Virus record (IMG/VR): IMGVR_UViG_3300030412_000377
Span: 1-35,095 of that record
Direction: 5' to 3' (one strand)
Origin: a virus
DNA: 35,095 bases
Part shown: positions 1,709 through 34,114 of the stretch, piece by piece
How positions within the stretch are numbered: the stretch's first letter is position 1
Layout of the letters: each line of letters opens with the position of its first letter
Program-made: the position numbers and the translations under genes
The notes under the pieces: model-generated
What the model saw: the letters and a program-made list of their open reading frames with translations, nothing else
The model's database searches: none
What the model was told of the DNA's origin: nothing

Positions 1709-1735
1709 AAGCGGTAACACAATAAGTTACCGCTT
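1709..1735. repeat. Perfect 10-bp inverted repeat
   Basis: AAGCGGTAAC, a 7-nt loop (ACAATAA), then GTTACCGCTT, in the spacer between the VWA gene and the AAA gene. There is no T-run on either side, so it is not a standard terminator. Its right arm overlaps the 18-bp operator-like site at 1723-1740, so it may be a regulatory hairpin or an extended binding site. Confidence 0.6.
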
Positions 1736-1740
1736 ACTTA
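1723..1740 (-). promoter_or_regulatory. Operator-like 18-bp palindrome, site A
   Basis: On the minus strand TAAGTAAGCGGTAACTTA, followed in register by a -10-like TATTGT. It keeps the outer arms TAAGT...ACTTA of the repeated element but diverges in the centre. It lies about 85 bp upstream of the AAA ATPase start and could give that gene a promoter separate from the VWA gene. Confidence 0.45.
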
Positions 1741-1756
1741 TTTCAGGTAAGTTGAT

Positions 1757-3874
1757 TTAGTCGAGCATTACACGTCTTAGCTGCTCCATTAATGTAGTTG
1801 GTAATGAGGACACGTCATTCAATACCGCATAGTCTGGGTAGTATCGCTTAACCACGTCCGTCTCGATGCCAATCCCAAATATATCAATCCCAACTCTTAT
1901 GAACTTTTTAACAGTTTCCTTCAAGTGTCTGTCCTGCGCGTTCATATCCCCTCTTGCCGCTGGCTGTCCGTCTGACAGTACGAATAGAACTCGGCGCTCA
2001 TTGCTCTGCTGTAGAAGGCGCTCGCAAGCATACTCCACGCACTCCCCATCTAAGTTACTTGAAGCGTCGATGGCGTAAGGCGTCACAGCCATGCGCTTTT
2101 TCTGTTCGGGTCCGAACCGCTCGCCATACGACTTGAATACTGGCATGTAGATGCGATCACTGCGAGAGTAGGTTCTCCCCATTTTCATCTCTTCCTCGTT
2201 TATTCTCTTTCTGTCTTCCGCTCTTAAGTTGGGTGACTTAGTGGTAAACCCCAATATTTCAAAGTCCACATTGACGCGACTTAGCACCTGCGACATAGCG
2301 TAGCCAGCTTCCATCGCTCTATTGAGTCGTGAGTTCGACCGCATTGATCCCGACAAGTCAATTAACACAGTTACGGCGACGTCTTTGGTCTTGCCCATCA
2401 CTTCACGTTTGCGGAACACGCGATCATCACCTGTCTTAAGCTTGAACAAGGCGGATGAGTTGACGCGACCATTTCTTCGTCCAGGCTGCCAGCGTGAGCG
2501 CGCTTTGGCCAATATCATTCTTTCTAGGTTCTTTTGAAGTGGGCCGACCACGTGACGCACCTTGTCATCCAGCTCTTCCAACATGCCATCTCTAAAGGCT
2601 CTCATTTCATCGTCGTATGGCGCGATAACGTCAAATTCTTTCGTGTAGACCAAGTAATCCGCACTCTTTGTTTCATCGAGGGCGTCTCGACTGATCGCCA
2701 TGCCGGCGGTATCATCAAAACCCTCTCCACTCACTAACTTCTCAAAGTCCTCAACAGAAATGGACTTCACTTCTTCGGACTCATCTTCGCCCCCAGACTC
2801 AAATTCAGATTCTTCCTCAGATTCTTCCTCTTCATCGTCGGACTCAGATTCTTCCTCTTCATCGTCGGACTCACCTTCACCTTCATCGTCGGACTCAGAT
2901 TCTTCCTCTTCATCGTCGGACTCACCTTCACCTTCACCAGACCCACCTTCATCATCAGACCCTTCCGATTCGGGTTCTTCTTCCGATTCGGGTTCTTCTT
3001 CCGATTCGGGTTCTTCTTCCGATTCGGGTTCTTCTTCCGGCTCAGACTCGCCCTCAGACTCATCCTCGCCCTCAGACTCGTCCTTGTCAGATTTGGTAGA
3101 GATACTACCCTCCTCGTCTTCGCCCTTTTCGCCTTTGTCTTCGTCGGACTCACCCTTACTACCGCCGTCTCTCGTTGACTTGGTTCTTTCTTTTGGTTCA
3201 GGCTCAGACTCAGACTCAGGCTTCTCTGGCTTCTCTGGGGCGATTGCTTTGTGAATTTCGATGGCGACAGATAACGAATCGCTGGTAGACGACACGTCGG
3301 CTATTTTCTTGCGAAGGTCGTCGCCTATTTTGTCAGTAAACTCAGGAATCAGTGGCCACTTGTCACTCATATAATCAACAAATACTTTTTGGCCAGACCA
3401 CGCTCTGATCGCTGGCACAAGTAGCGAACCCAACACTTTGTCTCTATCGCCCGCTGCAATTGCGCCTTCGACCGTTGGCGTCGTGTACTTCTCTAAGAAG
3501 AAGTTACCGACATTGTCTAAGTTGGTTGCAGAACCTTTAAACCGCTTAATCATGCTCTTTTCAACAAACGTGTCTTCGACCATGTTTGTTATTTCTGCAA
3601 CGCCTTTTCCGTATTTAGCTGATTTGGATAGGACATCAAAGTCTGAGAACATCAAGTGACCAACTTCGTGATCTAAGAAGCCATTAATGGCATTAATTAA
3701 ACCTTCGCTTGCTGTGTCTGGTATGTACGGCAGATTGACGCGCTGTGGAACGCCTCTTATTGATTCAACGTAGGCTGATGAGCCGCGTTGCGTAACTACG
3801 ATACCTCTACCTGATAAGATTCTCGTTACTTTTGATATTGACTCTCTCAATACATTGATGTCTAACTCAGCCAT
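1757..3874 (-). CDS. CobT-like VWA-domain protein with long acidic linker
   Basis: 705 residues. Residues 1-210 form an N-terminal domain with an HEVGHL motif (about 69-74). About 215-380 is an extremely acidic, low-complexity linker of Glu/Ser/Asp repeats. The C-terminal 200 residues are a von Willebrand A domain with the metal-ion-dependent adhesion site DLSGSM at 506-511 and a later VLSDGQP. This is the architecture of CobT-type partners of MoxR/CobS AAA ATPases, and the AAA gene follows on the same strand. HEVGH resembles a zinc-metallopeptidase HExxH motif; whether it is catalytic is open. The start ATG follows a GAGGAGAT ribosome site. The substrate is unknown; a chelatase role is not supported by any neighbour. 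Confidence 0.82.
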   Translation of the reverse strand: MAELDINVLRESISKVTRILSGRGIVVTQRGSSAYVESIRGVPQRVNLPYIPDTASEGLINAINGFLDHEVGHLMFSDFDVLSKSAKYGKGVAEITNMVEDTFVEKSMIKRFKGSATNLDNVGNFFLEKYTTPTVEGAIAAGDRDKVLGSLLVPAIRAWSGQKVFVDYMSDKWPLIPEFTDKIGDDLRKKIADVSSTSDSLSVAIEIHKAIAPEKPEKPESESEPEPKERTKSTRDGGSKGESDEDKGEKGEDEEGSISTKSDKDESEGEDESEGESEPEEEPESEEEPESEEEPESEEEPESEGSDDEGGSGEGEGESDDEEEESESDDEGEGESDDEEEESESDDEEEESEEESEFESGGEDESEEVKSISVEDFEKLVSGEGFDDTAGMAISRDALDETKSADYLVYTKEFDVIAPYDDEMRAFRDGMLEELDDKVRHVVGPLQKNLERMILAKARSRWQPGRRNGRVNSSALFKLKTGDDRVFRKREVMGKTKDVAVTVLIDLSGSMRSNSRLNRAMEAGYAMSQVLSRVNVDFEILGFTTKSPNLRAEDRKRINEEEMKMGRTYSRSDRIYMPVFKSYGERFGPEQKKRMAVTPYAIDASSNLDGECVEYACERLLQQSNERRVLFVLSDGQPAARGDMNAQDRHLKETVKKFIRVGIDIFGIGIETDVVKRYYPDYAVLNDVSSLPTTLMEQLRRVMLD
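2967..3038 (-). repeat. Four perfect 18-bp tandem repeats coding the acidic linker
   Basis: The unit GATTCGGGTTCTTCTTCC (plus strand) is repeated four times and encodes the hexapeptide repeat EEPESE of the VWA protein linker. Looser repeats of an approximately 27-bp unit containing TTCCTCTTCATCGTCGGACT lie beside it at about 2810-2935. The region is coding and could change length by slippage. Confidence 0.9.
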
Positions 3875-3953
3875 ATTTATCTCCTCGATATATTCAAAGC
3901 TATTAATTACTATTCTGTGGGCTATTCAATTTCAATCAAATCACACGATTTAA

Positions 3954-3971
3954 TAGCTCACTGATTACTTA
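3954..3971. promoter_or_regulatory. Operator-like 18-bp palindrome, site B
   Basis: Plus strand TAGCTCACTGATTACTTA; read on the minus strand TAAGTAATCAGTGAGCTA. In the minus orientation the -10-like TATTAA occupies the same place, directly after 16 nt of the element, as TATAAT does at sites E, F and H. It is about 80 bp upstream of the VWA gene start and probably carries that gene's promoter. The element is in the divergent 3875-4230 interval, which also serves the XRE gene. Confidence 0.55.
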
Positions 3972-4048
3972 TTAATTATGATACAAAATAAATCGCGGAA
4001 ATTGAAGAGAAAGATTATCTTAGGTAATTAGATTGAGCTATCACTACT

Positions 4049-4081
4049 CTCAAGGTCTTTCTAAGATTATTCCACCTTGAG
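4049..4081. repeat. Perfect 8-bp inverted repeat with 17-nt loop
   Basis: CTCAAGGT at 4049-4056 and ACCTTGAG at 4074-4081. It lies in the divergent control region between the VWA gene and the XRE gene, just upstream of the XRE promoter. No T-run follows, so a terminator is unlikely; a second regulator binding site or chance are both possible. Confidence 0.4.
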
Positions 4082-4104
4082 GATCTGTGCGGGATGATAA
4101 GTCA

Positions 4105-4134
4105 TTGACTATTTAACTTTCTCAATACTATACT
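4105..4134 (+). promoter_or_regulatory. Sigma-70 promoter for the XRE regulator
   Basis: TTGACT (4105-4110), an 18-bp spacer, then TATACT (4129-4134). The -35 hexamer is embedded in ATAAGTCATTGACTAT (about 4097-4112), which carries the TAAGTCA half-site of the repeated operator plus an inverted TGACTA. This suggests the regulator controls its own promoter. It predicts a leader of about 90 nt before the ATG at 4231. Confidence 0.6.
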
Positions 4135-4149
4135 AATAATTACAAACCA

Positions 4150-4216
4150 CATAGCGAGTTGCTATGGGAATGTAAATCGACACTCTGAGAGTGCAACAAT
4201 GCCAAAGGAATTGGCA
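4150..4216 (+). promoter_or_regulatory. Three small stem-loops in the XRE leader
   Basis: Three consecutive short inverted repeats precede the ribosome site: CATAGC/GCTATG (4150-4166), CACTC/GAGTG (4181-4193) and TGCCAA/TTGGCA (4200-4216). All fall downstream of the predicted transcription start, so they could fold in the mRNA leader or serve as DNA binding sites. No known riboswitch is recognised. Confidence 0.4.
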
Positions 4217-4230
4217 AAGATAGAGGGGGA

Positions 4231-4653
4231 ATGAATAGCATGAAGGAAACTACCAAACAGAACAAAACTATTGAGCTTAGTAAATATTTAGGCAAACAAA
4301 TAGAAGTATGTGGAAAGACCCAGCGCGAAATCGCTACCGATCTGGGATATAAAAATCCAAACATCATTACCATGTTCAAACAAGCTCATACAAAGATGCC
4401 TTTGGACAAGGTGGCTCTGATGGCAGAGTCTCTAGGCGTTGACCCAGTCAATCTGCTTAGAATGACCGTGAAGGAGTATTATCCGGGAATGTGGGAGGTC
4501 ATTGAGGGAATAATGGGCCGAGCCGTCAGCGAGAATGAGTATAAGATGATCGAGATCATTCGAGCCAACAAACAAAATCCAGACGCAGACCCACACATTT
4601 CAACCCCAAGTCAGGAAAAGAAGTTGATCGACTTTGCTTCAACGCTCGACTAG
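4231..4653 (+). CDS. XRE-family (Cro/CI-like) transcriptional regulator
   Basis: 140 residues. A helix-turn-helix spans about residues 28-55 (KTQREIATDLGY then NPNIITMFKQ), followed by LDKVALMAESLGVDP, the typical XRE fourth and fifth helices. The C-terminal half is short and helical, without the Ser-Lys self-cleaving peptidase domain of lambda CI. It is one of only two plus-strand genes and is followed by a strong terminator. Its position beside the excisionase and integrase suggests a lysogeny repressor or Cro-like switch protein. It is the best candidate to bind the repeated 18-bp palindromes. ATG 4231 sits very close to the GAGGGGGA ribosome site; ATG 4240 is a possible alternative start. 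Confidence 0.8.
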   Translation: MNSMKETTKQNKTIELSKYLGKQIEVCGKTQREIATDLGYKNPNIITMFKQAHTKMPLDKVALMAESLGVDPVNLLRMTVKEYYPGMWEVIEGIMGRAVSENEYKMIEIIRANKQNPDADPHISTPSQEKKLIDFASTLD

Positions 4654-4673
4654 GTAGACAGTTTCAAAAGTTT

Positions 4674-4703
4674 AAAGGTCATCGATTGATGGCCTTTTTT
4701 TTT
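4674..4703 (+). terminator. Rho-independent terminator of the XRE gene
   Basis: Stem AAAGGTCATC / GATGGCCTTT (10 pairs with one G-T), loop GATT, followed by a run of T to 4703. It lies 20 nt after the XRE stop codon, separating XRE transcription from the excisionase promoter. Confidence 0.85.
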
Positions 4704-4713
4704 GGTCTTAATA

Positions 4714-4742
4714 TTGACGAAAAGTAAGTCACCACTTATCAT
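4714..4742 (+). promoter_or_regulatory. Promoter of the excisionase-like gene with operator in the spacer (site C)
   Basis: TTGACG (4714-4719), a 17-bp spacer, then TATCAT (4737-4742). The spacer contains TAAGTCACCACT (from 4725), the left arm of the repeated element, so a bound regulator would block this promoter. Confidence 0.6.
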
Positions 4743-4749
4743 TCGATAG

Positions 4750-4767
4750 TAAGTCACTAATGACTTT
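4750..4767 (+). promoter_or_regulatory. Operator-like 18-bp palindrome, site D
   Basis: TAAGTCACTAATGACTTT, located at the predicted transcription start of the excisionase promoter, 25 bp from site C. Two copies flanking the -10 is the arrangement expected for repression. Confidence 0.65.
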
Positions 4768-4783
4768 TATTTGGAGAGAAGAA

Positions 4784-4975
4784 ATGACCTATTCTGGCTT
4801 TTTCACAACGGAAGAATTATTGTCGCGATATAAGATCGCCGCGCGTACGCTTAATCGATGGCAGCATGTGAAGCGAAACAAAGTTGGCGAGCTATTTCCA
4901 AAGCCCACTCTTCCGGGTGATGGTGGATATAATAGATGGTCTTACGAAGACATCGAGTCTTGGGAACGGGGCTAA
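4784..4975 (+). CDS. Excisionase-like small HTH protein (AlpA/MerR-type)
   Basis: 63 residues from ATG 4784, chosen over the in-frame ATG at 4760 because GGAGAG sits at proper distance before it and because 4760 lies inside operator site D. The sequence TTEELLSRYKIAARTLNRWQ followed by YNRWSYEDIESWE fits a winged-helix AlpA/MerR-type fold used by phage excisionases and recombination directionality factors. It is next to the integrase but convergent with it; the two stop codons overlap by 3 bases. Likely role: directing excision at induction. A small transcription activator is the alternative. Confidence 0.68.
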   Translation: MTYSGFFTTEELLSRYKIAARTLNRWQHVKRNKVGELFPKPTLPGDGGYNRWSYEDIESWERG

Positions 4976-6180
4976 ATAACCTTCCCACTCCCCACAATGC
5001 CCTCAATCTGATAAAACAATCGCGTCAACGCCTCTCTCTGCTCCTTGACGTAGGTATATTGGTCGTACACATCCTTCATCCCACCCAGCTTGTGCGCCAA
5101 AATAATCTCACAAATGTCCGGCAGCGTGTGTTCGGACAATTTAGTTCTCGCCGTTCTTCTCAAGTCATGCGGCGTCCAAGGGCTCATCACCTCCCCCATC
5201 TTCTTCGTGATGTAGTTGTCAAAGCTATCCACAGCGTCTCGCACCGTTGGACCACTAAAAGGCTCGCCTGTGCTGTCCGACACAAACACCCACCTTTCCT
5301 TGCCAGATAGCGCAAAGGCCAACTTCAACAAAGGCACTATCTCATCGATGATTGGGCGAACAATCAGGCGACTGGTTTTGCTGATCTTCTCAGGCACAAC
5401 CCACACCTTTTCATCCAAATTAAAATGCTCTTTTTCGCTCAGCCGCAACTCAATCATCCGACACCCCGTCAGCAAGACCAGCTTGTACATGATAATCTTC
5501 TTTGTGGTGACCCTTGTGCCGCGAAATGCTTGCCAAAGCCAGCGAAGTTCGTCGTCGTTCAACGTTCGCCTTATCACGCGCTTCTCAATTTTAAAGTCGA
5601 CCTTTGCGGATAGCGTGGCGACAGGGTTATTCTGGACGACATTCATTCTATGCGCCCACATATAATACTTCTTGATGTTGGTGATGATTCTTTGGGCTAT
5701 GCTTGGCACTTTGGCCGCGATACGCTCGATCTCAGAAACCCAAGACAAAATTGGAATGTCCCCAGGTGGCACTTTCCCTATATATGGGAAAACGTGTATC
5801 TCAAACGAGGCGAGTTGCTCCGATGGTCTTATCACTTCGCCCCACCGGTTCTTCTTAAACCAGTTGGTGAACGATGTCTCGAAAGACTCGCGCGTCACGA
5901 CCTTATCCTTCTCCGCCGCCTTGACCAGTTTTGGGTTGTGGCCTTCGTCCAATAGACCGCGTATTCTCAGACATTCGTTCCTAGCCTGCTTAAGTGTGAA
6001 TCTGGGATACGTTCCCAGTTTTATTCTGCTGGGTTTGCCATCGTATCGATAGCGCATTTGAAATGTCAGCCTACCTTTCGGAGACACCCTCACACTCAGT
6101 CCATCTCTGTCTGACTTCACCAACTCGCCTTCTCTTGGTCTATTGGCGTTAGCCTTAAGCCAAGCGTCTGTTAATGCCAT
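4972..6180 (-). CDS. int: Tyrosine recombinase (P4-type phage integrase)
   Basis: 402 residues when started at ATG 6178-6180. The frame is open back to 6255, but MALTDAWLKA is the usual start of this family and a GGGGA ribosome site precedes it. The N-terminal part is a DUF4102-type arm-binding domain (GLSVRVSPKG, then KLGTYPRFTLKQAR). A SAM-like core-binding domain follows. The catalytic domain carries LTGCRMIELRLSE (first Arg), PHDLRRTART (His-x-x-Arg), AHKLGG (second His) and the nucleophile Tyr in DQYTY. It catalyses site-specific insertion and excision of the phage. Repeats upstream probably form attP. All catalytic residues are present, so it should be active. Confidence 0.93.
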   Translation of the reverse strand: MALTDAWLKANANRPREGELVKSDRDGLSVRVSPKGRLTFQMRYRYDGKPSRIKLGTYPRFTLKQARNECLRIRGLLDEGHNPKLVKAAEKDKVVTRESFETSFTNWFKKNRWGEVIRPSEQLASFEIHVFPYIGKVPPGDIPILSWVSEIERIAAKVPSIAQRIITNIKKYYMWAHRMNVVQNNPVATLSAKVDFKIEKRVIRRTLNDDELRWLWQAFRGTRVTTKKIIMYKLVLLTGCRMIELRLSEKEHFNLDEKVWVVPEKISKTSRLIVRPIIDEIVPLLKLAFALSGKERWVFVSDSTGEPFSGPTVRDAVDSFDNYITKKMGEVMSPWTPHDLRRTARTKLSEHTLPDICEIILAHKLGGMKDVYDQYTYVKEQREALTRLFYQIEGIVGSGKVI

Positions 6181-6194
6181 GTTACGTCCCCAAC

Positions 6195-6488
6195 GTGTAC
6201 CAAAAATTCTGTCGTTTCTGGTCATTCTACATTTGGTACACACTTTGGTACACAAAAAAATGGCTAGGGGTGTCTTGATGTTGCCGGTGGTTGCTGAGGT
6301 GGGTTTTGCTGAGGTGGGTTAGAGCGGGGGTTTGGGAGGGGTTTTGGCCGGTGATGGCTAGGGTTGATATTTCACCACGTCATTTACATGCGCAATGATG
6401 GCAATATTGCGGAGATTGGCTATGCTCCTTGTGTTGAGGGGTGTTGTCATTTTGTTCCTTTAAGATTTGGTACACAATTTGGTACACA
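6195..6488. other. Putative attP region with integrase arm-site repeats
   Basis: TTTGGTACACA occurs at 6232-6242, 6244-6254, 6466-6476 and 6478-6488: two pairs, each with 12-bp period, all in one orientation. An inverted copy GTGTACCAAAA lies at 6195-6205. The pairs bracket about 210 bp that contains an exact 15-bp tandem repeat (TTGCTGAGGTGGGTT at 6291-6305 and 6306-6320) and TGGCTAGGG twice (6261, 6355). The region is directly upstream of int and holds no gene. Paired direct repeats flanking a core are typical of arm-type integrase sites. The crossover core itself cannot be identified without the host attB. Confidence 0.55.
6316..6341 (+). other. G-quadruplex motif on the plus strand
   Basis: Four G-runs of 3, 5, 3 and 4 separated by 7, 3 and 1 bases match the canonical G3+N1-7 pattern. 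It is in the putative attP/int upstream region. The motif is a sequence fact; folding is not shown. Confidence 0.55.
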
Positions 6489-6500
6489 TTTATTTTTTGC

Positions 6501-7133
6501 CTAAAATTCGTTGATGAAGCTTTTCCAAAACGCTCGTCGAAATAACCAATAGTCTTCAACGCTCATTTCATTCTCTTCACCTTTCATATTTGACCGATAA
6601 TATTCAACGTCGCGGTTTGATATAAGTTTATATTGACGTTCTAGGTCGAATATATGTTTTACTCTTTTCCCGCTATATTCCCAAAATACATAATCTGTAT
6701 TTATACTAGCGGGAAAGTGCATGATTACTTCTAACGCCTTTGTGCTTATATTAAGTTCCCTTACGTCCTTTCTTTTTAACGTCGCTACTTGAGACAGCGT
6801 TAGATCGGACATTATACAAACAATTATAGCCGTTCTCCTAGCGATGGAAAAATCACTCAACTCATCGTGAAGGGAGCTGACGTTAAATTTTCTAGTAGGG
6901 AGGTTGTATTGGGCGATCTTATCATTTTTGATTGCGCCGCTCTCAAGCATCGGTCTAATTTTGGACAAAAGCATCTCAACGCTATCAAGACCCTCTTGAC
7001 CGAGTCCTCTCATGGCCATCACCTTAAGATAGGCTGATACCTCTTCTGGCGTGATCTTCTCTACGTCTTTATCCCACATGCGAGAGTTGCTGATTGCGCT
7101 GTTGCCAGCCATTAGTTCTTTGATTGCGGTCAT
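6501..7133 (-). CDS. Degenerate tyrosine-recombinase-like protein
   Basis: 210 residues. Residues 95-140 (ARRTAIIVCIMSDLTLSQVATLKRKDV) resemble the first part of the integrase catalytic domain, where the family has T-G-x-R-x-S/G-E-x-x-x-L; here the catalytic Arg is replaced by Thr/Leu. The C-terminus WLFRRAFWKSF vaguely recalls the His-x-x-Arg box, but no tyrosine nucleophile is evident. It therefore looks like an inactive recombinase-fold protein, perhaps an accessory DNA-binding factor. The gene is immediately upstream of the putative attP on the integrase strand. The relation rests on a short segment, and it could be an unrelated helical protein. Confidence 0.5.
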   Translation of the reverse strand: MTAIKELMAGNSAISNSRMWDKDVEKITPEEVSAYLKVMAMRGLGQEGLDSVEMLLSKIRPMLESGAIKNDKIAQYNLPTRKFNVSSLHDELSDFSIARRTAIIVCIMSDLTLSQVATLKRKDVRELNISTKALEVIMHFPASINTDYVFWEYSGKRVKHIFDLERQYKLISNRDVEYYRSNMKGEENEMSVEDYWLFRRAFWKSFINEF

Positions 7134-7141
7134 ACACCCTC

Positions 7142-7162
7142 CATAGGCTAATGCCGCCTATG
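7142..7162 (-). promoter_or_regulatory. 7-bp hairpin just before the 6501-7133 gene
   Basis: CATAGGC / GCCTATG with a 7-nt loop. On the mRNA strand its second arm runs directly into the GGAGGG ribosome site of the 6501-7133 gene. It could limit ribosome access or be part of the preceding termination region. Confidence 0.4.
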
Positions 7163-7175
7163 ATCGGACATATAA

Positions 7176-7200: not shown

Positions 7201-7208
7201 ATCCTAAC

Positions 7209-9771: not shown

Positions 9772-10454
9772 GCTTGTCTCTCCTTATTTAGCCTTTTGGC
9801 CATATCAATTAAACTCTCCCCTTCTAATCGCTTAGATGGCGCTGATTTTGTTTGTTGCGCGGTCACAATTGGTCGTTCTTCCTCGACGGCGACTTTCGTC
9901 ATCTTTTGCAAAGCGACCTTGCCTTCTTCATGTTCGTTTTTGGCCATATCCGTCACAAGCTTGGCCATATCCATCATGTCGTACGTGGGCTTTTCAGCGC
10001 GCGTAATGGGTTGACCTGTGGGTTTGGTTGTCTTGAGAGAACCGACGCCGCCTGTGTGTCTTCTGATGTCTCTCACGGGTGACTTACTAGCCTCAACACC
10101 AACAATCTTTCTAGCCGTGTCATAAGACCACTTCTTGGGTGGTTGATTTGCCCCCGTTTTGCCCGCGCTAACCTGTGCGTGATAACCGTCTTGCTTAAAG
10201 TGAATCGCTTCGCCTGCTGCCAATTCTTCTTTATGCATTTTCTTTGCTTCGCACTGACCGCAATCTACCGCTCGACCACAATCTTCGACTTGAGACTGTG
10301 GCTTTGCTTCGCCACGCTCGTATGAGTCGATAGTATGCAGGCAGACAAAATACTTTCGTCTAAAGCCCATTCGCTCACATTGTATGTAGAGTCCATTGTT
10401 CGCGCCTTTCGACGCTGACGCTGGCAATTTTTCAGTTATTGTTGTTTCGCTCAT
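9768..10454 (-). CDS. Hypothetical protein with Cys-rich segment
   Basis: 228 residues from ATG 10452-10454, preferred over upstream in-frame ATGs at 10472 and 10463 because it lies just after the neighbouring stop with GGGGAG ten bases before it. Residues about 10-70 hold a cysteine-rich part (CERMG, FVCLHT, VEDCGRAVDCGQCEAKK) that may bind zinc. The rest is charged and probably disordered, with Lys/Glu-rich stretches and a repeated-looking motif (LIDMAKRLNKE, MMDMAKLVTDMAKNE). It sits between the WGR protein and the ligase and may be a DNA-processing accessory factor. That role is inferred only from position. Confidence 0.62.
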   Translation of the reverse strand: MSETTITEKLPASASKGANNGLYIQCERMGFRRKYFVCLHTIDSYERGEAKPQSQVEDCGRAVDCGQCEAKKMHKEELAAGEAIHFKQDGYHAQVSAGKTGANQPPKKWSYDTARKIVGVEASKSPVRDIRRHTGGVGSLKTTKPTGQPITRAEKPTYDMMDMAKLVTDMAKNEHEEGKVALQKMTKVAVEEERPIVTAQQTKSAPSKRLEGESLIDMAKRLNKERQA

Positions 10455-12087: not shown

Positions 12088-13541
12088 TATTCGGCCAATT
12101 CGTCGATAACTTCGGTAATAAACCGCATACGATCTTGTTGCTGTTTGATGTATATAGTTATGTCGCCTTTTTGGTTACGTGAGGCCGCGAAGAACAAGCG
12201 CGCTATCCCTTTATTTTGCTCGTCTTCTGACTTGTTGATTGAGATCATCAAGTCGGCGATACGTACCTTATTGAAATCCTCTGCGACGTGCTCCATTCGA
12301 GATACGGTTGACTTGGCACCCTCACGATTGGTTTGCGTTGCTGTTAGCATTGCAACGTCCTCACGCTGGGCAATCGCCCGCAAGTCGACATAAACAGACT
12401 TACTATTTTCCTGAATGTCCTGCGTTCTCACGTTGGGCGCCATAATATCGGCGTAATCGACCGCGATCAGATCGAAAATCAATCCCGCGTTCTTATGCTT
12501 TTGAATGATGCGATTTAATTCGTTGGGCGTCATCGTTCCAGATGGTCGCTCTTCAATGATAAATCTACCCAACTTGCCGGACGCTTCGACCGCCTTAAGC
12601 TTCGCATACACCTCGCTGGGCGAACTCGCCACTTCGCTGATAATAATATCGGCCAAGTTTGCATCGAGACGGTCTGACGTGATCTTAGCCGACACCTCTA
12701 ACGTGACGTACAAAACATTGTAACCACCTAGAGATGCGAACTTTGAAAAGTCGGCAAGCGCTGTAGACTTACCCTTTTTGGGGCCGGCCATAAATACGGT
12801 CAACTCTTTGCGACCCCAACCCTTGTGGAACAGCTCCTTGTCGAGCGCTGGAATCCCCGTAGAGATGCCTCGTCTCACAACCGTCCCAGCAAGAACGGCA
12901 AGGCGCTCATCCTTACGATTGACGGACTCTTCAAAGTAATCGTATGCCGCAATATCAGACTGCTTGCCCACCTCAGAAGCCTTTCTCACCACATCGGCCG
13001 CTTTGTCGAACTCCCTTTTATCAATTAAGGTCACGTATTCGAGCGCCGCAACCAACATAGCTTGGTGTCTTGCAAAGTCAGCCACACGGTCGGCTACATA
13101 ATCCCCATCCGTTATATCTTCTTTATAGATTGCGACAATGCTTCTACCCAGTTCCTCTTTCATATCGGCGCGAATGACTTTCTTATTGATTGCCTGCTTG
13201 ATCAATTCTAAAAAGGTCGATCTTGTGGGCGACACCTTATAAGCATTGAAGAAGTCAACGGCAATTGAAGTTAGCGTGGCGCTCATCGCATTCTCAAAAT
13301 ACTCCGGCCTAACCAAGCCCTCCACGCTTCTATTGAATGGGGTGCTTCTAACCGCAAGCGCCAAAATCTTTCTTTGAAAGTCTTCGTCGAAGTCGTATTT
13401 TTCCACCTCCACTGGCGTTGAAGACTCAACCTCTTCCACTACTGCCACAACTGGCACTTCTTTCTTGTCTGGCGCGGTTGCGCGCATTTGCTTTGCCATG
13501 TCCGCTGCAAAGCTTTCTTCTGTTACGGCTGATTCAGTCAT
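12087..13541 (-). CDS. Replicative DNA helicase (DnaB/RecA-fold)
   Basis: 484 residues. An N-terminal helical domain (about 50-200) precedes a RecA-like ATPase with Walker A GPKKGKST at 253-260 and Walker B LIAVDYADIM at about 358-367. ATQTNREG and SRNQKGD further on match the DnaB H3/H4 region. It should form a hexamer that unwinds DNA at the fork and recruit the primase encoded next. The first 45 residues are disordered and acidic. Its ATG at 13539-13541 lies 7 nt after the stop of the Hfq-like gene. The segment TAAGTAACCGATGACTGA across the start resembles the operator element (15 of 18 bases) and may be coincidental. Confidence 0.9.
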   Translation of the reverse strand: MTESAVTEESFAADMAKQMRATAPDKKEVPVVAVVEEVESSTPVEVEKYDFDEDFQRKILALAVRSTPFNRSVEGLVRPEYFENAMSATLTSIAVDFFNAYKVSPTRSTFLELIKQAINKKVIRADMKEELGRSIVAIYKEDITDGDYVADRVADFARHQAMLVAALEYVTLIDKREFDKAADVVRKASEVGKQSDIAAYDYFEESVNRKDERLAVLAGTVVRRGISTGIPALDKELFHKGWGRKELTVFMAGPKKGKSTALADFSKFASLGGYNVLYVTLEVSAKITSDRLDANLADIIISEVASSPSEVYAKLKAVEASGKLGRFIIEERPSGTMTPNELNRIIQKHKNAGLIFDLIAVDYADIMAPNVRTQDIQENSKSVYVDLRAIAQREDVAMLTATQTNREGAKSTVSRMEHVAEDFNKVRIADLMISINKSEDEQNKGIARLFFAASRNQKGDITIYIKQQQDRMRFITEVIDELAE

Positions 13542-13548
13542 CGGTTAC

Positions 13549-13827
13549 TTACTCTTCTGAATAGATAATTGCTTCGATGCCGTGCTTGTACAAACAAGCG
13601 GTCTCGGTGCCATTTATGTTCTTTGGCATCGCTACTGTAATCGTGTACTTGTCGAAATTGGTAACGATACCCTCAACAACGTTCTCACTGGTCATGACGA
13701 ACTTAACGCGGCGAGCATCTTCCTTCAATCGTTGTAACATGTGCTCGTGACCAACTAACTTGCGCTTGGTGCTAATCTGCTTATTCAAGCTCAATACTGG
13801 TGCTCTTTTGTTTGACTTTTGTTCCAT
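13549..13827 (-). CDS. Hfq/Sm-like RNA-binding protein
   Basis: 92 residues from ATG 13825-13827, which follows GGGGAC at good distance. The frame is open to an ATG at 13917, but that extension would run through operator site E and its TATAAT, so it is rejected. Residues about 38-66 (VKFVMTSENVVEGIVTNFDKYTITV) fit the Sm1 motif, and LYKHGIEAIIYS (79-90) fits Sm2, where bacterial Hfq has YKHAIS. A basic N-terminal tail of about 30 residues precedes it. Likely a ring-forming RNA chaperone that may imitate or compete with host Hfq. It is the first gene of the replication operon. Residues for a specific RNA face cannot be judged from sequence alone. Confidence 0.68.
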   Translation of the reverse strand: MEQKSNKRAPVLSLNKQISTKRKLVGHEHMLQRLKEDARRVKFVMTSENVVEGIVTNFDKYTITVAMPKNINGTETACLYKHGIEAIIYSEE

Positions 13828-13879: not shown

Positions 13880-13897
13880 TAACTAAGTTGTGACTTA
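13880..13897 (-). promoter_or_regulatory. Operator-like 18-bp element with TATAAT, site E
   Basis: Minus strand TAAGTCACAACTTAGTTA; TATAAT (plus 13876-13881) overlaps its end. It is about 50 bp upstream of the Hfq-like start and is the likely promoter of the replication operon. No good -35 hexamer is seen. Confidence 0.65.
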
Positions 13898-18034: not shown

Positions 18035-18052
18035 TAAGTCATTGGTGACTTA
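18035..18052 (-). promoter_or_regulatory. Operator-like 18-bp palindrome with TATAAT, site F
   Basis: Minus strand TAAGTCACCAATGACTTA, a near-perfect palindrome; TATAAT follows after 16 nt (plus 18031-18036). About 40 bp upstream of the holin-candidate start. Seventeen bases before TATAAT is TAGAAA, a poor -35. Confidence 0.7.
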
Positions 18053-19852: not shown

Positions 19853-19870
19853 TAAGTCACCGATTACTTA
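19853..19870. promoter_or_regulatory. Operator-like 18-bp palindrome, site G
   Basis: Plus strand TAAGTCACCGATTACTTA; minus TAAGTAATCGGTGACTTA. It lies only 20 bp before the endolysin start, leaving little room for a promoter plus ribosome site, so here it may act as a roadblock type operator. Confidence 0.6.
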
Positions 19871-19891: not shown

Positions 19892-20617
19892 TTACTTGGT
19901 TTTGATTAGATTGATGAGATGTCCAGATAGATCGTATCTACCCATCACGATTTGTCTGACGTTTTGGTGGTGCGTGTTTTGGTAACTTTCGCCAAAGGTG
20001 AAGATATTTAACCAATGACTGTCTCTACTTTCGTCCCCATTGTCGTGCGGCTGACTGCCTACCATGTGACCGAAAGTTCCCGATATTTGCATGACCGCAA
20101 ATATCATCGCCACTGGTAACGCCCATGCCCAGAACACCAGCGGTGGGCTAATCGCAACCAAGGCTAACGCATATAGAAATGATATTTTATAGTAGTGCTT
20201 GTGTAGCCAATTGTGACGCTTATCTCGTATCAAGTCTTTTATCAACACCAACGGCGTCTTGAGCGACCAAGGTCCGAATATCCATGCCTTGATTGCGCTG
20301 TTGTGTGGGTAGTAGGGGTCTTTTCCCTCTATGTCTGAGAAAGCGTGATGCGCCCTATGCAGACCACACCAGCTAATAGAGCTGCCGACGCCCGACAGAG
20401 TACCGGCTATCATCAAAAACCACCACCAGAAACCACTGGTCTCGAACGCCCGGTGACATATCATTCTGTGAAAGCCAATGGACATTCCCACATTCATAAT
20501 GAAAAAGACCACCAGTGCCAAACCAACGCCAGGCCAGGAGAAGAAAAAGATCAGACCCACCGCGGCTATGATATGCGCCAAGCCAGCCATCAACTTTATC
20601 TTTCTAAATCCAAACAT
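19892..20617 (-). CDS. Fatty acid (acyl-CoA type) desaturase
   Basis: 241 residues with four or more hydrophobic segments and the three histidine boxes of membrane di-iron desaturases: HRMICH (50-55), HRAHH (87-91) and QNTHHQN (about 213-219) preceded by FTFGES; additional His at 184 and 201. It should insert a double bond in membrane fatty acyl chains. It is shorter than most bacterial delta-9 enzymes (300-380 residues) but keeps all boxes. Its ATG overlaps the stop of the upstream tail gene (TAATG), so it is translated with the late genes. This is an auxiliary metabolic gene, possibly altering membrane fluidity during infection or in the lysogen. Origin by transfer from a host is likely. 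Confidence 0.9.
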   Translation of the reverse strand: MFGFRKIKLMAGLAHIIAAVGLIFFFSWPGVGLALVVFFIMNVGMSIGFHRMICHRAFETSGFWWWFLMIAGTLSGVGSSISWCGLHRAHHAFSDIEGKDPYYPHNSAIKAWIFGPWSLKTPLVLIKDLIRDKRHNWLHKHYYKISFLYALALVAISPPLVFWAWALPVAMIFAVMQISGTFGHMVGSQPHDNGDESRDSHWLNIFTFGESYQNTHHQNVRQIVMGRYDLSGHLINLIKTK

Positions 20618-23072: not shown

Positions 23073-23090
23073 TAACTCATCGGTGACTTA
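23073..23090 (-). promoter_or_regulatory. Operator-like 18-bp palindrome with TATAAT, site H
   Basis: Minus strand TAAGTCACCGATGAGTTA; TATAAT at plus 23069-23074 in the same register as sites E and F. It would drive the fibre-desaturase operon. Confidence 0.7.
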
Positions 23091-29060: not shown

Positions 29061-29670
29061 TGTTTATCGCCGGAAAGCCGCCGTAATTAATTTGATTTAA
29101 GTGGACTGCGCAACCGTTGTCGCCCTGTAGGGTGAAGTCGCATGTGGGCAACGCTCCAGCATAGCCACACTCCACACTCTTATAAGCCCAAGGGCAGCGA
29201 TCACGCAGTTGACGTCGTCTTGGGAAGTTCAACAGCAAGTGAAGCTCGCCAGATAGTTGCCATTTGACGCTGTAGTCGTCCACGCTTGCGGACTTGACCG
29301 AGAACGTCTCTACTATTTCCGGAGGCAAGCTGAAATCACCTGAGTTCACGACCAAGATCCGAACTTCAAATCCGACCGCGCCCGCGTACTCATCCATTCT
29401 CTGTTTAATTGCCCCAGATACGTCCTCAATCGTGACGCTTACGCCAGGCTCCTGACCACCCTCAGACTTTATCTCCAGCGAGAATGGAAAGGCTGTATAT
29501 TCATTCCCGTCGTAGTCAATGTTTTCGGGGTTGTTCACCAAATATAGCGTCTCCACCAGTGTGCCAGCGGAGGTTTTGACGTCCACCTCAAGACACACCA
29601 GAAATGGAAATTCCGAGTCAATTTTGTTCTTTTCTGCGACCGACGCGACAGATAAATGGTTGCTATTCAT
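29053..29670 (-). CDS. Minor tail protein (lambda L-like)
   Basis: 205 residues. The N-terminal beta-rich domain (FLVCLEVDVKT, YDGNEYTAFPF, VSVTIEDVSG) and the C-terminal segment with four cysteines (C159, C168, C177, C187) fit the lambda L family, in which the cysteines bind an iron-sulphur cluster. It lies between the M- and K-like genes as expected and should sit at the tail tip. The start is only 13 bp from operator site I; GTGAAGAT before the ATG serves as a weak ribosome site. Confidence 0.82.
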   Translation of the reverse strand: MNSNHLSVASVAEKNKIDSEFPFLVCLEVDVKTSAGTLVETLYLVNNPENIDYDGNEYTAFPFSLEIKSEGGQEPGVSVTIEDVSGAIKQRMDEYAGAVGFEVRILVVNSGDFSLPPEIVETFSVKSASVDDYSVKWQLSGELHLLLNFPRRRQLRDRCPWAYKSVECGYAGALPTCDFTLQGDNGCAVHLNQINYGGFPAINNG

Positions 29671-29683
29671 ATCTTCACTATAG

Positions 29684-29701
29684 TAAGTAATGGGTGACTT
29701 A
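29684..29701 (-). promoter_or_regulatory. Operator-like 18-bp palindrome, site I
   Basis: Minus strand TAAGTCACCCATTACTTA, followed by TACTAT at the usual -10 place. The start codon of the L-like gene is 13 bp away, so a promoter here would give an almost leaderless mRNA. Acting as an internal roadblock operator is an alternative. Confidence 0.6.
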
Positions 29702-29715
29702 TTATACCAAAGAAG

Positions 29716-30081
29716 CTAAACCTCCTCAAGAGATACATCGGCTATATCCCATAGATGGGTGCCGCCCATTCCCTTGTAGCTGAATTTAAGCTCCTTTGAG
29801 AATCTAACCATAATTTCCTCATCATTGGTGGGAATGGTGTAGGTGAACGCTACACTGCCGCCCAATTTAGCATTCCAAAACGCTTCGATGAGGTCTTTGT
29901 TGTCGCTGGTGATGGCGGTGAACTTAGTTGTGATCGTTCTTCTTGGCCGTCTAGTGTAGCGCTTGCGTGACGTTGCATAGCCACCCTCGCCTTTAATCTT
30001 AACGCCTGGATCTGCGCTGGAGATGGAGAACCCTGATGAGTCCTCCTTCTGTGTGAAGCCCGCCGGTGGAAAATCGCTCAT
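29716..30081 (-). CDS. Minor tail protein (lambda M-like)
   Basis: 121 residues. GEGGYATSRKRYTRRPRRTI, EAFWNAKLGGSVAFTY and a closing WDIADVSLEEV fit the M family of tail-tip proteins and are paralogous to the C-terminal domain of the 15618-16625 product. It is placed between tape measure and L, the lambda order. Its ATG overlaps the tape-measure stop as TAATG. Likely part of the ring or collar at the tail tip. Confidence 0.82.
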   Translation of the reverse strand: MSDFPPAGFTQKEDSSGFSISSADPGVKIKGEGGYATSRKRYTRRPRRTITTKFTAITSDNKDLIEAFWNAKLGGSVAFTYTIPTNDEEIMVRFSKELKFSYKGMGGTHLWDIADVSLEEV

Positions 30082-33000
30082 TATCTTAGCGCTCCCTTCA
30101 TGCTGTCTCTAAATGGTCCCGGCGTTCCCGCCGCTGACATGACCACGTCCAATATCATCTTCTTGCCATCGAACTTCATCTGACCTTGGTTTGCTGTGAC
30201 CTCTTGAGACGTTTGGTTGATGACATTAACCTGGACGCTAGGCGCAGATTGACCACCGCCCGACATCGTTACCGGGATGGTTCTGCCATCTGGCAATGGC
30301 ACGTAGGCTTCTGCCATTCTACCTTCACCAAACATGGCCAATTGAGGGGTGTTTGCAACGCCGCCGTTTGCGTACATGTTCAACGGCATACTACCGCCAC
30401 TGGACATGATGCCGCCTTTGGCAAAAGCGAAAAGATCAAACATTGCGTACTCTAGGTCTGACCCAGCAAAGTTGCTACCGGTATTGCCGCCAATCAAACC
30501 ACCCAACGAACTTAAGAGACCGCTTCCACCCGAACCACCACCCGAACCACCAAGAATATCTGAGATGTTGCCTTGCAATTGAAGCTTAACGATGTCTCTC
30601 AAGATAGACTCGACCAACTCTGTAAAGCCGCCCTTGCCGGTGACGATAAAATCGGTCAACTTGTCGGTCGCGTCGTCTAGCCAGTCCGCTGTCGCGTCTT
30701 GCATACGACCAGTTGTATCTTCCCACTCTCTAAGTAGCCTGTCCGTTGCCGTCTCGGTGTTGCGCGCATACTCATCCTCAAGCGCTGCGATATAATCGTA
30801 GTACGCCGCCCACAGTTCCTTTTGGACATCGACAGACTTACTCTCGATACCAATGAGAATTTTAGCTGCATCATCCGACTTCTTCCTAAACTCATTGAGG
30901 AACTTCTGACGCTCATCGAGCGCTTCGGTATTCATCGTTTTGGTTTCTTCGATTAACTTGGCTGCGTCTAGTACGCCGCTAGTATCTCTGGCATGGGACT
31001 TGATTGCCTCGCCCATGTCGATGATCTCTTGCGTCGCGTTGGGCATGTTTAATAGCAGCTCGTCGACTCGACGTGCGGTTTTGTCGATAAAGGACTCATC
31101 GTCCCCAGTCAATAGAAGATTCTTGGCTGTGGCGAGCTCCTGGTTGGATTTGCGATACAGTGATTCAAGACTCTCGCCTGCGCGCTCAGCAACCCTAGCC
31201 TCCTTGACCGCCTCCTTGTACTTGTCCATCTCAACCAGCATGGCTCTGATTTGGCTTAAGTCTTTGCCACCCACAAAACCACCGGCCAGCAGTGACTCAC
31301 CATCTTCGCCATAAAAGCCGCCCTTTAGCATCGCTTCAAACTTGGCCACGCTTGTTGAGCCGTCTAGCAAATCTGCTTTTAGTTTGGCAATGTTGGCCGT
31401 CGTTTGTGTGACGAAATTCTCAATTTGTGAATTGCCGCCCTTTCTGGCCAACAACTTCGCTTCCCTGTCAGCATCAAGCACCTGCTCGTCTTTTCTTTTT
31501 CTAATGGCGTCTTCGATCTCTTTAAGACCCTTCAACTCACCCTGTAGCGCAACCATATCGTCTCTCGACGCGCCAATCATCTGCTCGGCAATTCTCAAGC
31601 CTTCGCCCGCAGTCGCCTCTATTTGAGACTCGTAGAATTTGGCAATAATTTCTTTCTTGCGCGTGGTGTACTGAACCAGCGTCACCTCCTCTGCATCAAG
31701 CGCCTTGGCTAATTTTTCGGACTCGTCGCTGTAGCTTGCCGTCAAATCGGCGTTCTTTTTGGCAAGGCTAATTCTAAGCACTTCTAGCTTGTGCTCGGTT
31801 AAATTTGTTTCGCGAGCAAGTTGACTTTCCGCGCTAAGCTTCTCAAGATCCGCCAACTCCTCGGCATTGGCTTCGTAGTGGGCTTTGAGCCCGTCCATTG
31901 ATGCTTTGGCCTGCGCAATCCGTTCGTCGCTAAAACCTGACGAGGACAAGAAGTCGAACTTACTTTGCGCACCTGCAAAATCCTTGCTCAAGACCTCGTT
32001 AAGCGCTCGTTTGCTGGCAATGGCCGACTCTAGCGTCTTTTTGCTGTCTTTGTCTAAGGCGAGTGCGTGCTTGTCGACCATCTCGGTCGCTCTATCCACG
32101 TCGTTGCCAAAATCAAAGAACGCAAGACCCGCTGCTGTCGCCAAACCAATGACGATACCCCAAGGACCCGCCAAGAATCGAAGTGAAGCTGCTAACACCC
32201 CAATAACCGTAGAGAGCTTGCTTGCTGCAACCGCGGTTGTGGTCATGCTTGCTGCTGCCGCAACGGTTGGCCCCATCATTGCTGCCGTCGCTGCGTTGGC
32301 TGCTAGTTGCGCTGCCGTGTACGTACCTAACGCTTTAGATGTGGTGCCAAGAAATGTAGCGACGCCGCCAATAACCTTGTAGGCAATAAACAAAGCGCCC
32401 AAACTCTTAATGAGGGAGGTGATGACTTCATTATGTTCGATAATGTATTCGGTCAATATAACCATGTTGGAGATTGCTTCGCCAAGGAAGTTACCCCACG
32501 CTTGGGCTGTTGCTTCGATGCGGTTTGGGTCTAGCTCGTCAATTAGCTTGCCCAAGGCGTCTTTGGCTGCCTCGAACATACCCGCATTACCCACAGTCAC
32601 CTGCAATCGCGTCCATCGCGTAGACAATCGACTGACCATACCCGACCAAGTGGCCATCATATTTTGAGCCGCGCCGCCCATCGTTCTATCCATCTCGGCA
32701 AACATTCGCTTAAGCGCGTCGTTGGCTTCAACTCGACCGGTTGCAATGTTGTCAACCAACTGTTGGTATGTGAGGTTCATTGAGCGCGCCATAAGCTTGA
32801 TAGCGGTCGGAACAGCCTCACCGAGCTGCTGACGTAGCTCTTCCATCGAGATGACGCCCTTACCGGCCATCTGTTGGATCGCTATGGTTGCTCTGTGAAG
32901 GGTTTCATCTGTACCACCGAACTGCGCTACCGCATTGGTGAGCGACTCTAGTCCAAATCGCGCGTCTTCTAGCCCAACAGAGCGCATCTTAACCAAGCTG

Positions 33001-33392
33001 TTTGTCATTTCGTTCAACGAGAACGGTGCGCGCTCTGCTTGATCAAATAGATACTCAAGATCGTCCGCCGCTTCTTTAATACGACCAGATTCAGTCGTCG
33101 CTTGAGACATACCCTTGAGTAAAAAGGTCATACGCTCGATCTGCGCATTCGTATCGATGATGGATTTTTGCCACAGGCTGTGAATGCCGCCCCTTAGAAT
33201 AGAGGCGGTGATAGCGAAGTCACGAAGCTTGGGCAAGATGCCGCCCACCGCTTTCTCGATGTTGCCAATGGACTTCTTAGTGTTGTCAAAGTCTCGACCA
33301 AGCTTTCTTACCGTCTCGCCCGCCTTAATGGTGCGTACGGTAAAATTCTTATCATTCAGCTCAAGCTCAACGCGGATATTGCCTAGACTCAT
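30081..33392 (-). CDS. Tail tape measure protein
   Basis: 1103 residues, the largest gene after J. Residues about 1-300 hold the tape-measure N-terminal domain (GQAVPT-like GEAVPTAIKLMARSMNLT, FAEMDRTMGG). Hydrophobic Ala/Gly-rich segments at about 305-430 are typical membrane-active parts, and long helical, charged stretches (430-950) form the coiled body. A Gly/Ser-rich part and an FAKGG-x-MSSGG end follow. The protein sets tail length; at about 0.15 nm per residue the tail would be roughly 165 nm, which is an estimate. It comes right after the G/GT chaperones, as in lambda. ATG follows AGAGG. Confidence 0.92.
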   Translation of the reverse strand: MSLGNIRVELELNDKNFTVRTIKAGETVRKLGRDFDNTKKSIGNIEKAVGGILPKLRDFAITASILRGGIHSLWQKSIIDTNAQIERMTFLLKGMSQATTESGRIKEAADDLEYLFDQAERAPFSLNEMTNSLVKMRSVGLEDARFGLESLTNAVAQFGGTDETLHRATIAIQQMAGKGVISMEELRQQLGEAVPTAIKLMARSMNLTYQQLVDNIATGRVEANDALKRMFAEMDRTMGGAAQNMMATWSGMVSRLSTRWTRLQVTVGNAGMFEAAKDALGKLIDELDPNRIEATAQAWGNFLGEAISNMVILTEYIIEHNEVITSLIKSLGALFIAYKVIGGVATFLGTTSKALGTYTAAQLAANAATAAMMGPTVAAAASMTTTAVAASKLSTVIGVLAASLRFLAGPWGIVIGLATAAGLAFFDFGNDVDRATEMVDKHALALDKDSKKTLESAIASKRALNEVLSKDFAGAQSKFDFLSSSGFSDERIAQAKASMDGLKAHYEANAEELADLEKLSAESQLARETNLTEHKLEVLRISLAKKNADLTASYSDESEKLAKALDAEEVTLVQYTTRKKEIIAKFYESQIEATAGEGLRIAEQMIGASRDDMVALQGELKGLKEIEDAIRKRKDEQVLDADREAKLLARKGGNSQIENFVTQTTANIAKLKADLLDGSTSVAKFEAMLKGGFYGEDGESLLAGGFVGGKDLSQIRAMLVEMDKYKEAVKEARVAERAGESLESLYRKSNQELATAKNLLLTGDDESFIDKTARRVDELLLNMPNATQEIIDMGEAIKSHARDTSGVLDAAKLIEETKTMNTEALDERQKFLNEFRKKSDDAAKILIGIESKSVDVQKELWAAYYDYIAALEDEYARNTETATDRLLREWEDTTGRMQDATADWLDDATDKLTDFIVTGKGGFTELVESILRDIVKLQLQGNISDILGGSGGGSGGSGLLSSLGGLIGGNTGSNFAGSDLEYAMFDLFAFAKGGIMSSGGSMPLNMYANGGVANTPQLAMFGEGRMAEAYVPLPDGRTIPVTMSGGGQSAPSVQVNVINQTSQEVTANQGQMKFDGKKMILDVVMSAAGTPGPFRDSMKGALR

Positions 33393-33402
33393 TACAAACC
33401 TC

Positions 33403-34043
33403 TTACGACAGAGCGGCTAACGATTTCAATCCCTCACGATCCAGCTTTTCCTCAATCGTTTGAATGTTGCCCAGCTCGGTTAATAAATCTTCCCGATAGG
33501 TCTTAAACCCATCTTCGCTCCCCACGCCCAACTGAAATCTCAGTCGTCTTAAATCTTTTGCAGCCGATATGCGACCCACATTTCCACTCATTAGCCAGAA
33601 ACGACGAAGAGGCATGGAAAGTACCTCTTCATCTGTCAGTCCGTAAAAATGGCAAACGTTGCAGTAAACGAAGCCGAAATCGATCTCCGTTACCAGCGCG
33701 CCACTGGCTTGCTTTACTTTTTTACACCTTCGCCTTCTGGGGCGCCTTCTGTTTCCGCCTCTGCTTCTGCGCGGATAAAGTCAACGATGAGTTTCAACCG
33801 TTGCAAGTCCATAGCCCGCAACTCTGCTTCTTTGATAGTTGGAAACGAATCTAAGATCGTGGCGACAAAGCGCTCAAACGACTCACTTACCTTCATTTCT
33901 TTTTCTGCGTATTCTTCGGCTTCGCGAGTTAGCTCAATAAAGCGCTGAACTGTGAGTGCCGCCATGACGTGCTCTTTGCCTTTCAAGATGATGACCTTCT
34001 CGTTAGCAGGTAGAACTTCGTCCAAATTTAATAATTTCGCCAT
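33403..34043 (-). CDS. Tail assembly chaperone, GT-type -1 frameshift product
   Basis: Made by reading the 33714-34043 frame to the slippery site and then slipping back one base at 33717. After the slip the frame continues without a stop for 104 codons to 33403 (begins VKQASGALVTEIDFGF, later LTDEEVLSMPLRRFWLMSG). Total 213 residues. The downstream frame has no ATG until 33615, which has no ribosome site, so it needs the shift. This is the exact organisation of lambda G/GT, whose product ratio is needed for tail assembly around the tape measure protein. Confidence 0.85.
33714..34043 (-). CDS. Tail assembly chaperone, G-type (unshifted product)
   Basis: 109 residues: beta-rich start (LLNLDEVLPANEKVIILKG), a helical middle (FIELTREAEEYAEKEM) and an acidic end. 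This size, acidity and place between the tube protein and the tape measure fit the G-type tail chaperone. The final codons GTA AAA AAG TAA include the slippery heptamer. ATG follows AAAAAAGGAA. Confidence 0.82.
   Translation of the reverse strand: MAKLLNLDEVLPANEKVIILKGKEHVMAALTVQRFIELTREAEEYAEKEMKVSESFERFVATILDSFPTIKEAELRAMDLQRLKLIVDFIRAEAEAETEGAPEGEGVKK
33717..33723 (-). promoter_or_regulatory. Slippery heptamer A AAA AAG for -1 frameshifting
   Basis: On the mRNA strand A AAA AAG lies in the right phase two codons before the stop of the G-type gene (zero-frame AAA AAG). It is among the most efficient bacterial -1 sites, the same heptamer as in E. coli dnaX. Confidence 0.88.
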
Positions 34044-34064
34044 TTCCTTTTTTCCTTTTTGGTA

Positions 34065-34088
34065 TAGACCCTCCGTGAAGAGGGTCTA
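34065..34088 (-). repeat. 9-bp hairpin between tube protein and tail chaperone
   Basis: TAGACCCTC / GAGGGTCTA with a 6-nt loop. No T-run follows on the minus strand (ATACCAAAAAGG), so it is a weak or factor-dependent terminator, or an mRNA 3'-end stabiliser for the abundant tube message. Confidence 0.6.
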
Positions 34089-34096
34089 AAGTTTGA

Positions 34097-34114
34097 TAAC
34101 TTGCTGGTGACTTA
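34097..34114 (-). promoter_or_regulatory. Operator-like 18-bp element, site J
   Basis: Minus strand TAAGTCACCAGCAAGTTA with TATCAA in the -10 place. It directly follows the tube protein stop and precedes the hairpin at 34065-34088 and the tail chaperone start. Confidence 0.55.

Follow-up and report, generated by a model that had tools for sequence, protein, structure and literature searches.

The virus record IMGVR_UViG_3300030412_000377 carries an 18-bp palindrome with the consensus TAAGTCA-N4-TGACTTA in many copies. The analysed stretch, referred to as the window, comprises bases 1-35,095 of the 41,583-base record. The sites are scattered, lie mostly just upstream of genes, recur together with a gene for a small XRE protein and vary with the recognition helix of this protein. 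Based on these comparisons we consider it probable, with good confidence, that the palindromes serve as operators for a single repressor encoded by the phage, the 140-residue XRE protein of the window, whose predicted binding would silence many lytic promoters directly. An earlier note on this DNA had suggested, as one of two readings, that the sites form a dispersed repressor regulon whose simplest ligand is the XRE protein, and this putative assignment is now favoured by comparative evidence, namely the co-occurrence of sites and gene and their covariation with the helix.

Distribution of the palindrome in the record

A search with the consensus, allowing up to three mismatches, yielded 16 strand matches in the window, which fall at 11 places, compared with a shuffle expectation of 0.11 (mean, n = 100). 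A symmetric matrix, seeded with the sites of the earlier note, was then applied to the whole record and identified 17 sites with scores of at least 15.8; in the shuffled record (n = 50) the best matrix score was 11.8 on average and 16.7 at most. The repeated palindrome is therefore real and more numerous than had been noted. Nine of the ten sites originally lettered A to J (A, B and D to J) are supported by the matrix, and site C (4725) is doubtful because its scores are within the shuffled range. Matches were found mostly between genes: 14 of the 17 sites touch non-coding DNA according to our own gene list, versus 7.3% of random places (p = 6e-14). Since the matrix was seeded with the earlier sites, it is fairer to consider the eight non-seed sites, of which five touch non-coding DNA (p about 1e-4). 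Three of the 17 sites lie inside genes (935, 10069 and 33777), the latter two with scores below the best shuffled one, and three further sites are located beyond the window (36168, 38133 and 39108). The sites of the window and the gene of the proposed repressor are the following:

1723-1740, minus strand: operator A, before the CobS-like gene (matrix score 22.4)
3954-3971, minus strand: operator B, before the CobT-like gene (18.3)
4098-4115, plus strand: operator missed by the earlier note, in the gap separating the CobT-like and XRE genes, some 140 nt ahead of the XRE gene (17.2)
4231-4653, plus strand: XRE/helix-turn-helix (HTH) protein of 140 residues, proposed repressor (PHROG and weak Pfam HTH matches; phage-plasmid homologues)
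4721-4742, plus strand: site C, doubtful, with two weak overlapping registers at 4721 and 4725 (11.6 and 10.7)
4750-4767, plus strand: operator D, ahead of the excisionase-like gene or at its start (22.4)
13534-13551, minus strand: operator missed by the earlier note, spanning the start codon of the DnaB-like gene (21.9)
13880-13897, minus strand: operator E, with TATAAT at +17 (17.6)
18035-18052, minus strand: operator F, with TATAAT at +17 (25.2)
19853-19870, minus strand: operator G, before the peptidase M15 (endolysin-like) gene (25.1)
23073-23090, minus strand: operator H, before a tail fibre gene, with TATAAT at +17 (23.9)
29684-29701, minus strand: operator I, before a minor tail gene, its edge overlapped by TTGAGG-N17-TATAAT (23.1)
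34097-34114, minus strand: operator J, upstream of the open reading frame (ORF) 33714-34043 and 2 nt past ORF 34116-34955 (18.7)
935-952, no strand assigned: site within the CobS-like gene, of doubtful function (19.0)
10069-10086, no strand assigned: weak intragenic match, probably due to chance (16.5)
33777-33794, no strand assigned: weak intragenic match, probably due to chance (15.8)

In the mechanism we propose, a dimer would occupy each 18-bp site with one recognition helix per TAAGTCA half, and the bound XRE protein would block RNA polymerase at promoters overlapping the site. Replication, structural and lysis units of the prophage would be silenced directly and one by one, not only by way of an early promoter and the cascade behind it. 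Operators beside the XRE gene would allow autoregulation, the units would be derepressed together once repressor activity is lost, and the pairs of operator and helix would define immunity groups.

Recurrence of the sites with the XRE gene

The XRE protein matched four PHROG families (best E value 1.5e-5) and the Pfam family HTH_37 with an E value of 3.7e-4, a match too weak to reach the curated cut-off of that family; beyond this HTH match the Pfam scan of the protein returned nothing. A profile of the XRE family matched the PDB entry 8bny, 'Immunity repressor protein', with an E value of 2.8e-5. The AlphaFold model built from the single sequence was poor (mean predicted local distance difference test score 51) and was not used. 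Homologues (E up to 1e-3) were present in 932 of 72,556 plasmid records, which are not necessarily all phage-plasmids, and in 132 of them the match extended over at least 80% of the protein; the commonest genera were Klebsiella, Escherichia, Acinetobacter and Enterobacter. When viral contigs were scanned with the XRE protein of the window alone, no relative was detected; alignments of closer XRE sets did yield relatives.

An exact-pattern scan of viral contigs by the operator sequence alone returned 14 stretches on 13 contigs. The three longest of these (115, 96 and 64 kb) encode an XRE homologue with 27, 44 and 41% identity, respectively, and contain 39, 29 and 21 sites with a window matrix score above 17, of which 34, 25 and 15 are intergenic. 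No XRE match was detected on the ten shorter contigs (4.5-42.7 kb), as may be the case with fragments.

In a blind search the commonest 7-base palindrome of each record was determined, and its copies are given here as intergenic/all; shuffled versions of a record reached 2-6 copies at most. The type TAAGTCA-N4 was obtained for G006 (27/29), G008 (24/27) and G012 (13/15), TAAGTAA-N4 for pLM21S1 (34/39), B1VFA (29/38) and Shinella (15/20), and TCAGTCA-N4 for pAMS5a (13/37) and Cupriavidus (12/19). TAGTAAG-N2 was found in pABTJ2 (16/17), AGTCAAT-N4 in RHEph10 (8/10) and weaker TAAGTA types in Cyrano, pJN2-26 and pFSIS12033266-1. By this search all ten large named XRE-bearing records examined carry dispersed palindromes with related sequences; the excess was modest for Cyrano and RHEph10, and in pAMS5a and Cupriavidus many copies are situated within predicted ORFs. 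Refined matrices gave 36-81 matches per large named XRE-bearing record (pFSIS12033266-1, B1VFA and Shinella left out), some of these counts being inflated by sites overlapping in register. For Cyrano, the matches of two matrices (52 and 33) collapse into 34 distinct places, and 31 of these lie outside annotated genes. In these comparisons, gene starts and the numbers of intergenic sites derive from a crude longest-ORF caller. Two candidates were rejected: palindromes of Cereibacter, which are probably repeats beside cas genes (cas3u), and a Thauera motif with 22 matches after matrix refinement, which looks like drift to A+T-rich gaps.

With the XRE gene as starting point, 58 loci were fetched by scans with two closer XRE protein sets and 52 of them were counted. 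L177 and L194 represent one contig, which is hence missing from the count, L193 and L197 duplicate contigs retained as L176 and L178, and L192 (short) and L200 were omitted as presumed near-copies; among the loci kept, L158/L159, L166-L168 and L171/L174 resemble close relatives. With the best of seven operator templates, 32 of the 52 loci were enriched at p<1e-3, whereby p was derived from four shuffles, the expected number of matches being set to at least 0.25, and is uncorrected for the seven templates. Reversed templates gave 0 of 52, and 20-kb chunks of the three XRE-less relatives nickie, hairong and ANB28 0 of 15. By source, enrichment comprised 30 of 42 viral loci and two of ten loci from genome contigs; among the 12 negative viral loci, seven have three sites each (p = 2.2e-3).

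The operator type also varied with the protein. GTCA was the operator type in 16 of the 17 loci with the recognition-helix core MFK, and GTAA in seven of the eight with MLK (p = 1.3e-4), a test which leaves out the seven of the 32 loci that have other helix cores. The exceptions to the pairing are L154 and L169.

Six of the 14 records compared, namely the window record, G006, RHEph10, pLM21S1, B1VFA and Shinella, have an operator 136-150 nt upstream of the XRE gene, which suggests autoregulation. In Cupriavidus the operator is found at -205, and the other seven records contain weaker or differently placed matches. In the Escherichia coli LF82 lysogen the XRE homologue CYRAN_45 is expressed 10-fold above the prophage background and the Cyrano element is induced by genotoxic stress, as stated in the accessible parts of PMC9928086. 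In all 11 records tested, an operator lies no more than 200 nt upstream of the CobS orthologue, despite differing operator sequences.

Promoters at the sites and relatives without the XRE gene

TATAAT had been described as starting exactly 16 nt past the first base of sites E, F and H (13880, 18035 and 23073), which is correct and holds for 38133 as well; the TATAAT-like hexamers at A, B, I and J agree with it in four of six positions each. The accompanying claim of poor -35 hexamers applies to 19853 and 34097, where no promoter-like pair overlaps the site, and not to 29684 (TTGAGG-N17-TATAAT) and 38133 (TGGATA-N17-TATAAT), which possess pairs with 10 of 12 matching positions each. Among 78 oriented intergenic sites from six records, the -10-like hexamer showed two offset peaks, at -4 (14 of 78) and +17 (11 of 78), so the spacing between site and hexamer is not fixed; the median distance from the site to the start codon downstream is 52 nt. 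At 18 of the 78 sites, the gene strand carried an overlapping sigma-70-like pair with at least 9 of 12 matching positions, and the opposite strand did so at seven (p = 0.028); with shuffled flanks the number was 3.5 on average and 8 at most. At a threshold of at least 8 of 12 the strand difference was not significant (39 vs 27, p = 0.07).

These data bear on the suggestion of the earlier note that the palindromes are activator boxes, at which a bound protein replaces the -35 element and turns genes on. TATAAT at exactly +17 in four sites of the record would fit such a role. However, the two preferred -10 offsets lie on either side of the site and each comprises a minority, -35-like hexamers are present at several sites and sigma-70-like promoters overlap them, which makes activation very unlikely; offsets at either edge are more easily reconciled with a repressor that has only to cover the promoter than with an activator dependent on a fixed spacing. 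The chance that the sites serve DNA replication, partition or packaging instead of transcription is in our view minimal: the many copies per genome would agree with it, but the sites are distributed over the length of the records, close in front of genes, and are tied to the gene for an HTH protein.

The same ligand might also act in the manner of stoperators, with most sites inside transcribed units, where bound repressor would halt the elongating polymerase. Sites in short gaps between same-strand genes are compatible with this, as is the site at 38133, which follows the capsid gene and directly precedes a terminator-like hairpin, so that a promoter there would precede a terminator. On the other hand, the sites described here are palindromic, whereas L5 stoperators are asymmetric and orientation-dependent (PMC9283540, in the passages available), and promoter-like pairs on the gene strand overlap the sites. 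We regard this explanation as unlikely and prefer repression at the promoters.

Several results weigh against the proposed repressor regulon. Twenty of the 52 XRE-bearing loci remained under the enrichment cut, including eight of the ten from genome contigs, and small XRE-bearing plasmids of Thauera, Cereibacter and Lichenihabitans showed no such operator. The association of helix and operator became weaker upon clustering, in a test which adds 11 whole records with labels entered by hand: 16:1 vs 1:2 at 60% identity (p = 0.046) and 12:1 vs 0:2 at 50% (p = 0.029). A good operator is absent from the conserved place upstream of the XRE gene in eight of 14 records. Published expression data for Cyrano gave no significant support, operators within 200 nt being present at 2 of 9 heads of expressed units and at 23 of 67 others (p = 0.71), and the conservation of regulon membership was not significant overall (32 of 67 vs 43 of 118, p = 0.16). 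The site at 38133 before its hairpin fits a roadblock no less well than an operator at a promoter. Finally, SSU5 is without the XRE gene and yet keeps TAAGTA sites, with 52 matrix matches, 39 of them intergenic.

The other XRE-less relatives differ in this respect: in nickie, hairong and ANB28 no XRE protein was found, and the blind search revealed at most two intergenic copies of any palindrome. In the stretch compared between SSU5 and Cyrano, the sole nucleotide match starts right after CYRAN_46; integrase, XRE and small gene are accordingly not at that place in SSU5. The SSU5 region 41776-42761 (L046) contains no integrase-XRE cassette where Cyrano has one. With somewhat better than even confidence we extend the reading to the SSU5-type group as a whole: one small XRE repressor would keep lysogeny at dozens of promoters, the palindromes would have diversified with the helix, and the lytic nickie, hairong, ANB28 and SSU5 would represent lineages that lack the repressor cassette, the loss in SSU5 being recent enough for the operators to have been kept.

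The sites retained in SSU5 could also point to another protein of the same elements as ligand, e.g., the small protein encoded beside XRE. The small gene usually adjoins the XRE gene, so both would be gained and lost together. However, differences in the recognition helix of XRE are accompanied by differences in operator type, and at the integrase-XRE place SSU5 is likewise without similarity to the small gene of Cyrano. We hold such a ligand to be quite improbable and retain the XRE protein as the predicted one.

Behind the operator after the capsid gene (record 38100-38150, corresponding to L001 4101-4151), the terminator-like hairpin is accompanied by a T run. The succession of operator and hairpin is similar at G006 8946 and G008 74002.

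Comparable regulons and the type of element

One site type repeated between genes over the whole genome is also a feature of the P1, L5 and SPbeta regulons. According to the available parts of the cited papers, P1 possesses 22 dispersed, asymmetric C1 operators of 17 bp (PMC8546580). It is likewise a phage-plasmid in which a single repressor serves operators dispersed genome-wide; by contrast, the sites described here are 18-bp palindromes, often more numerous, and the repressor would be a small XRE protein, a comparison of layout and not of protein sequence. Cluster A mycobacteriophages carry 20-30 repressor sites, mostly intergenic and oriented with transcription; these stoperators are asymmetric 13-mers, mostly not at promoters, and the repressor binds them as a monomer possessing two DNA-binding domains (PMC9283540, PMC6550527). 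Genome-wide intergenic sites and sequence variants matching repressor specificity are common to both systems, whereas the 13-bp stoperator is asymmetric and the present site an 18-bp palindrome. The likeness to L5 stoperators which had been drawn previously thus stands for the layout and not for the symmetry of the sites. In SPbeta, MrpR binds the element SPBRE, with about ten sites named, and this element was seen in silico before its protein had been identified (PMC10516654). MrpR is a prophage master repressor at repeated elements in promoter regions as well, but has a tyrosine-recombinase fold, whereas the XRE protein gives HTH matches only.

Within the titles, beginnings of abstracts and passages covered, which exclude preprints and most subscription papers, no such sites were described for the SSU5-type group, and the term 'palindrom' is not present in the available text of the pLM21S1 papers PMC5537653 and PMC4447125. 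Given the precedents and the lack of one found for this group, the system looks like a family-wide variant of the known dispersed-operator kind, with palindromic sites and a small XRE protein. If this is true, repressor and operators can be recognised, superinfection immunity predicted and immunity groups read from the sequence. The helix/operator pairs would moreover constitute a natural series on the change of repressor specificity when dozens of sites must follow.

Capsid protein (L001 4161-5063), DnaB and XRE of the record have relatives in SSU5-type phage-plasmids such as SSU5, Cyrano, pABTJ2, RHEph10 and pLM21S1, with identities to the listed members of 60-69% for the capsid and 40-46% for DnaB. 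The large named members that were fetched comprise 103-122 kb, whereas the record is a 41.6-kb piece. The gene order around integrase, XRE, CobT and CobS agrees with the SSU5 type, as compared with pABTJ2 and Cyrano. In pABTJ2 the genes for DnaB, primase, ligase, guanylate kinase, site-specific integrase, HTH regulator and a small protein are followed by a hypothetical protein at the CobT position and a MoxR-family ATPase at the CobS position, and the record is much alike. No plasmid replication or partition genes were recognised among the scanned proteins of this piece, some ORFs being unscanned. Two further genes of the window are the following:

4760-4975, plus strand: excisionase-like protein of 71 residues, beside the XRE gene (PHROG 1553, E value 3e-12)
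4972-6255, minus strand: tyrosine integrase (Pfam Phage_integrase and Arm-DNA-bind_3)

A second palindrome, AAAACAA-N1-TTGTTTT, is present in 9-12 copies each (7-10 intergenic) in the four enterobacterial records SSU5, Cyrano, pJN2-26 and pFSIS12033266-1. Immediately beyond the end of the window a run of N occupies positions 35096-35118 of the record (L001 1097-1119). A fatty-acid desaturase-like gene (19892-20617, minus strand; Pfam FA_desaturase, E value 6.5e-18) adjoins the endolysin-like gene.

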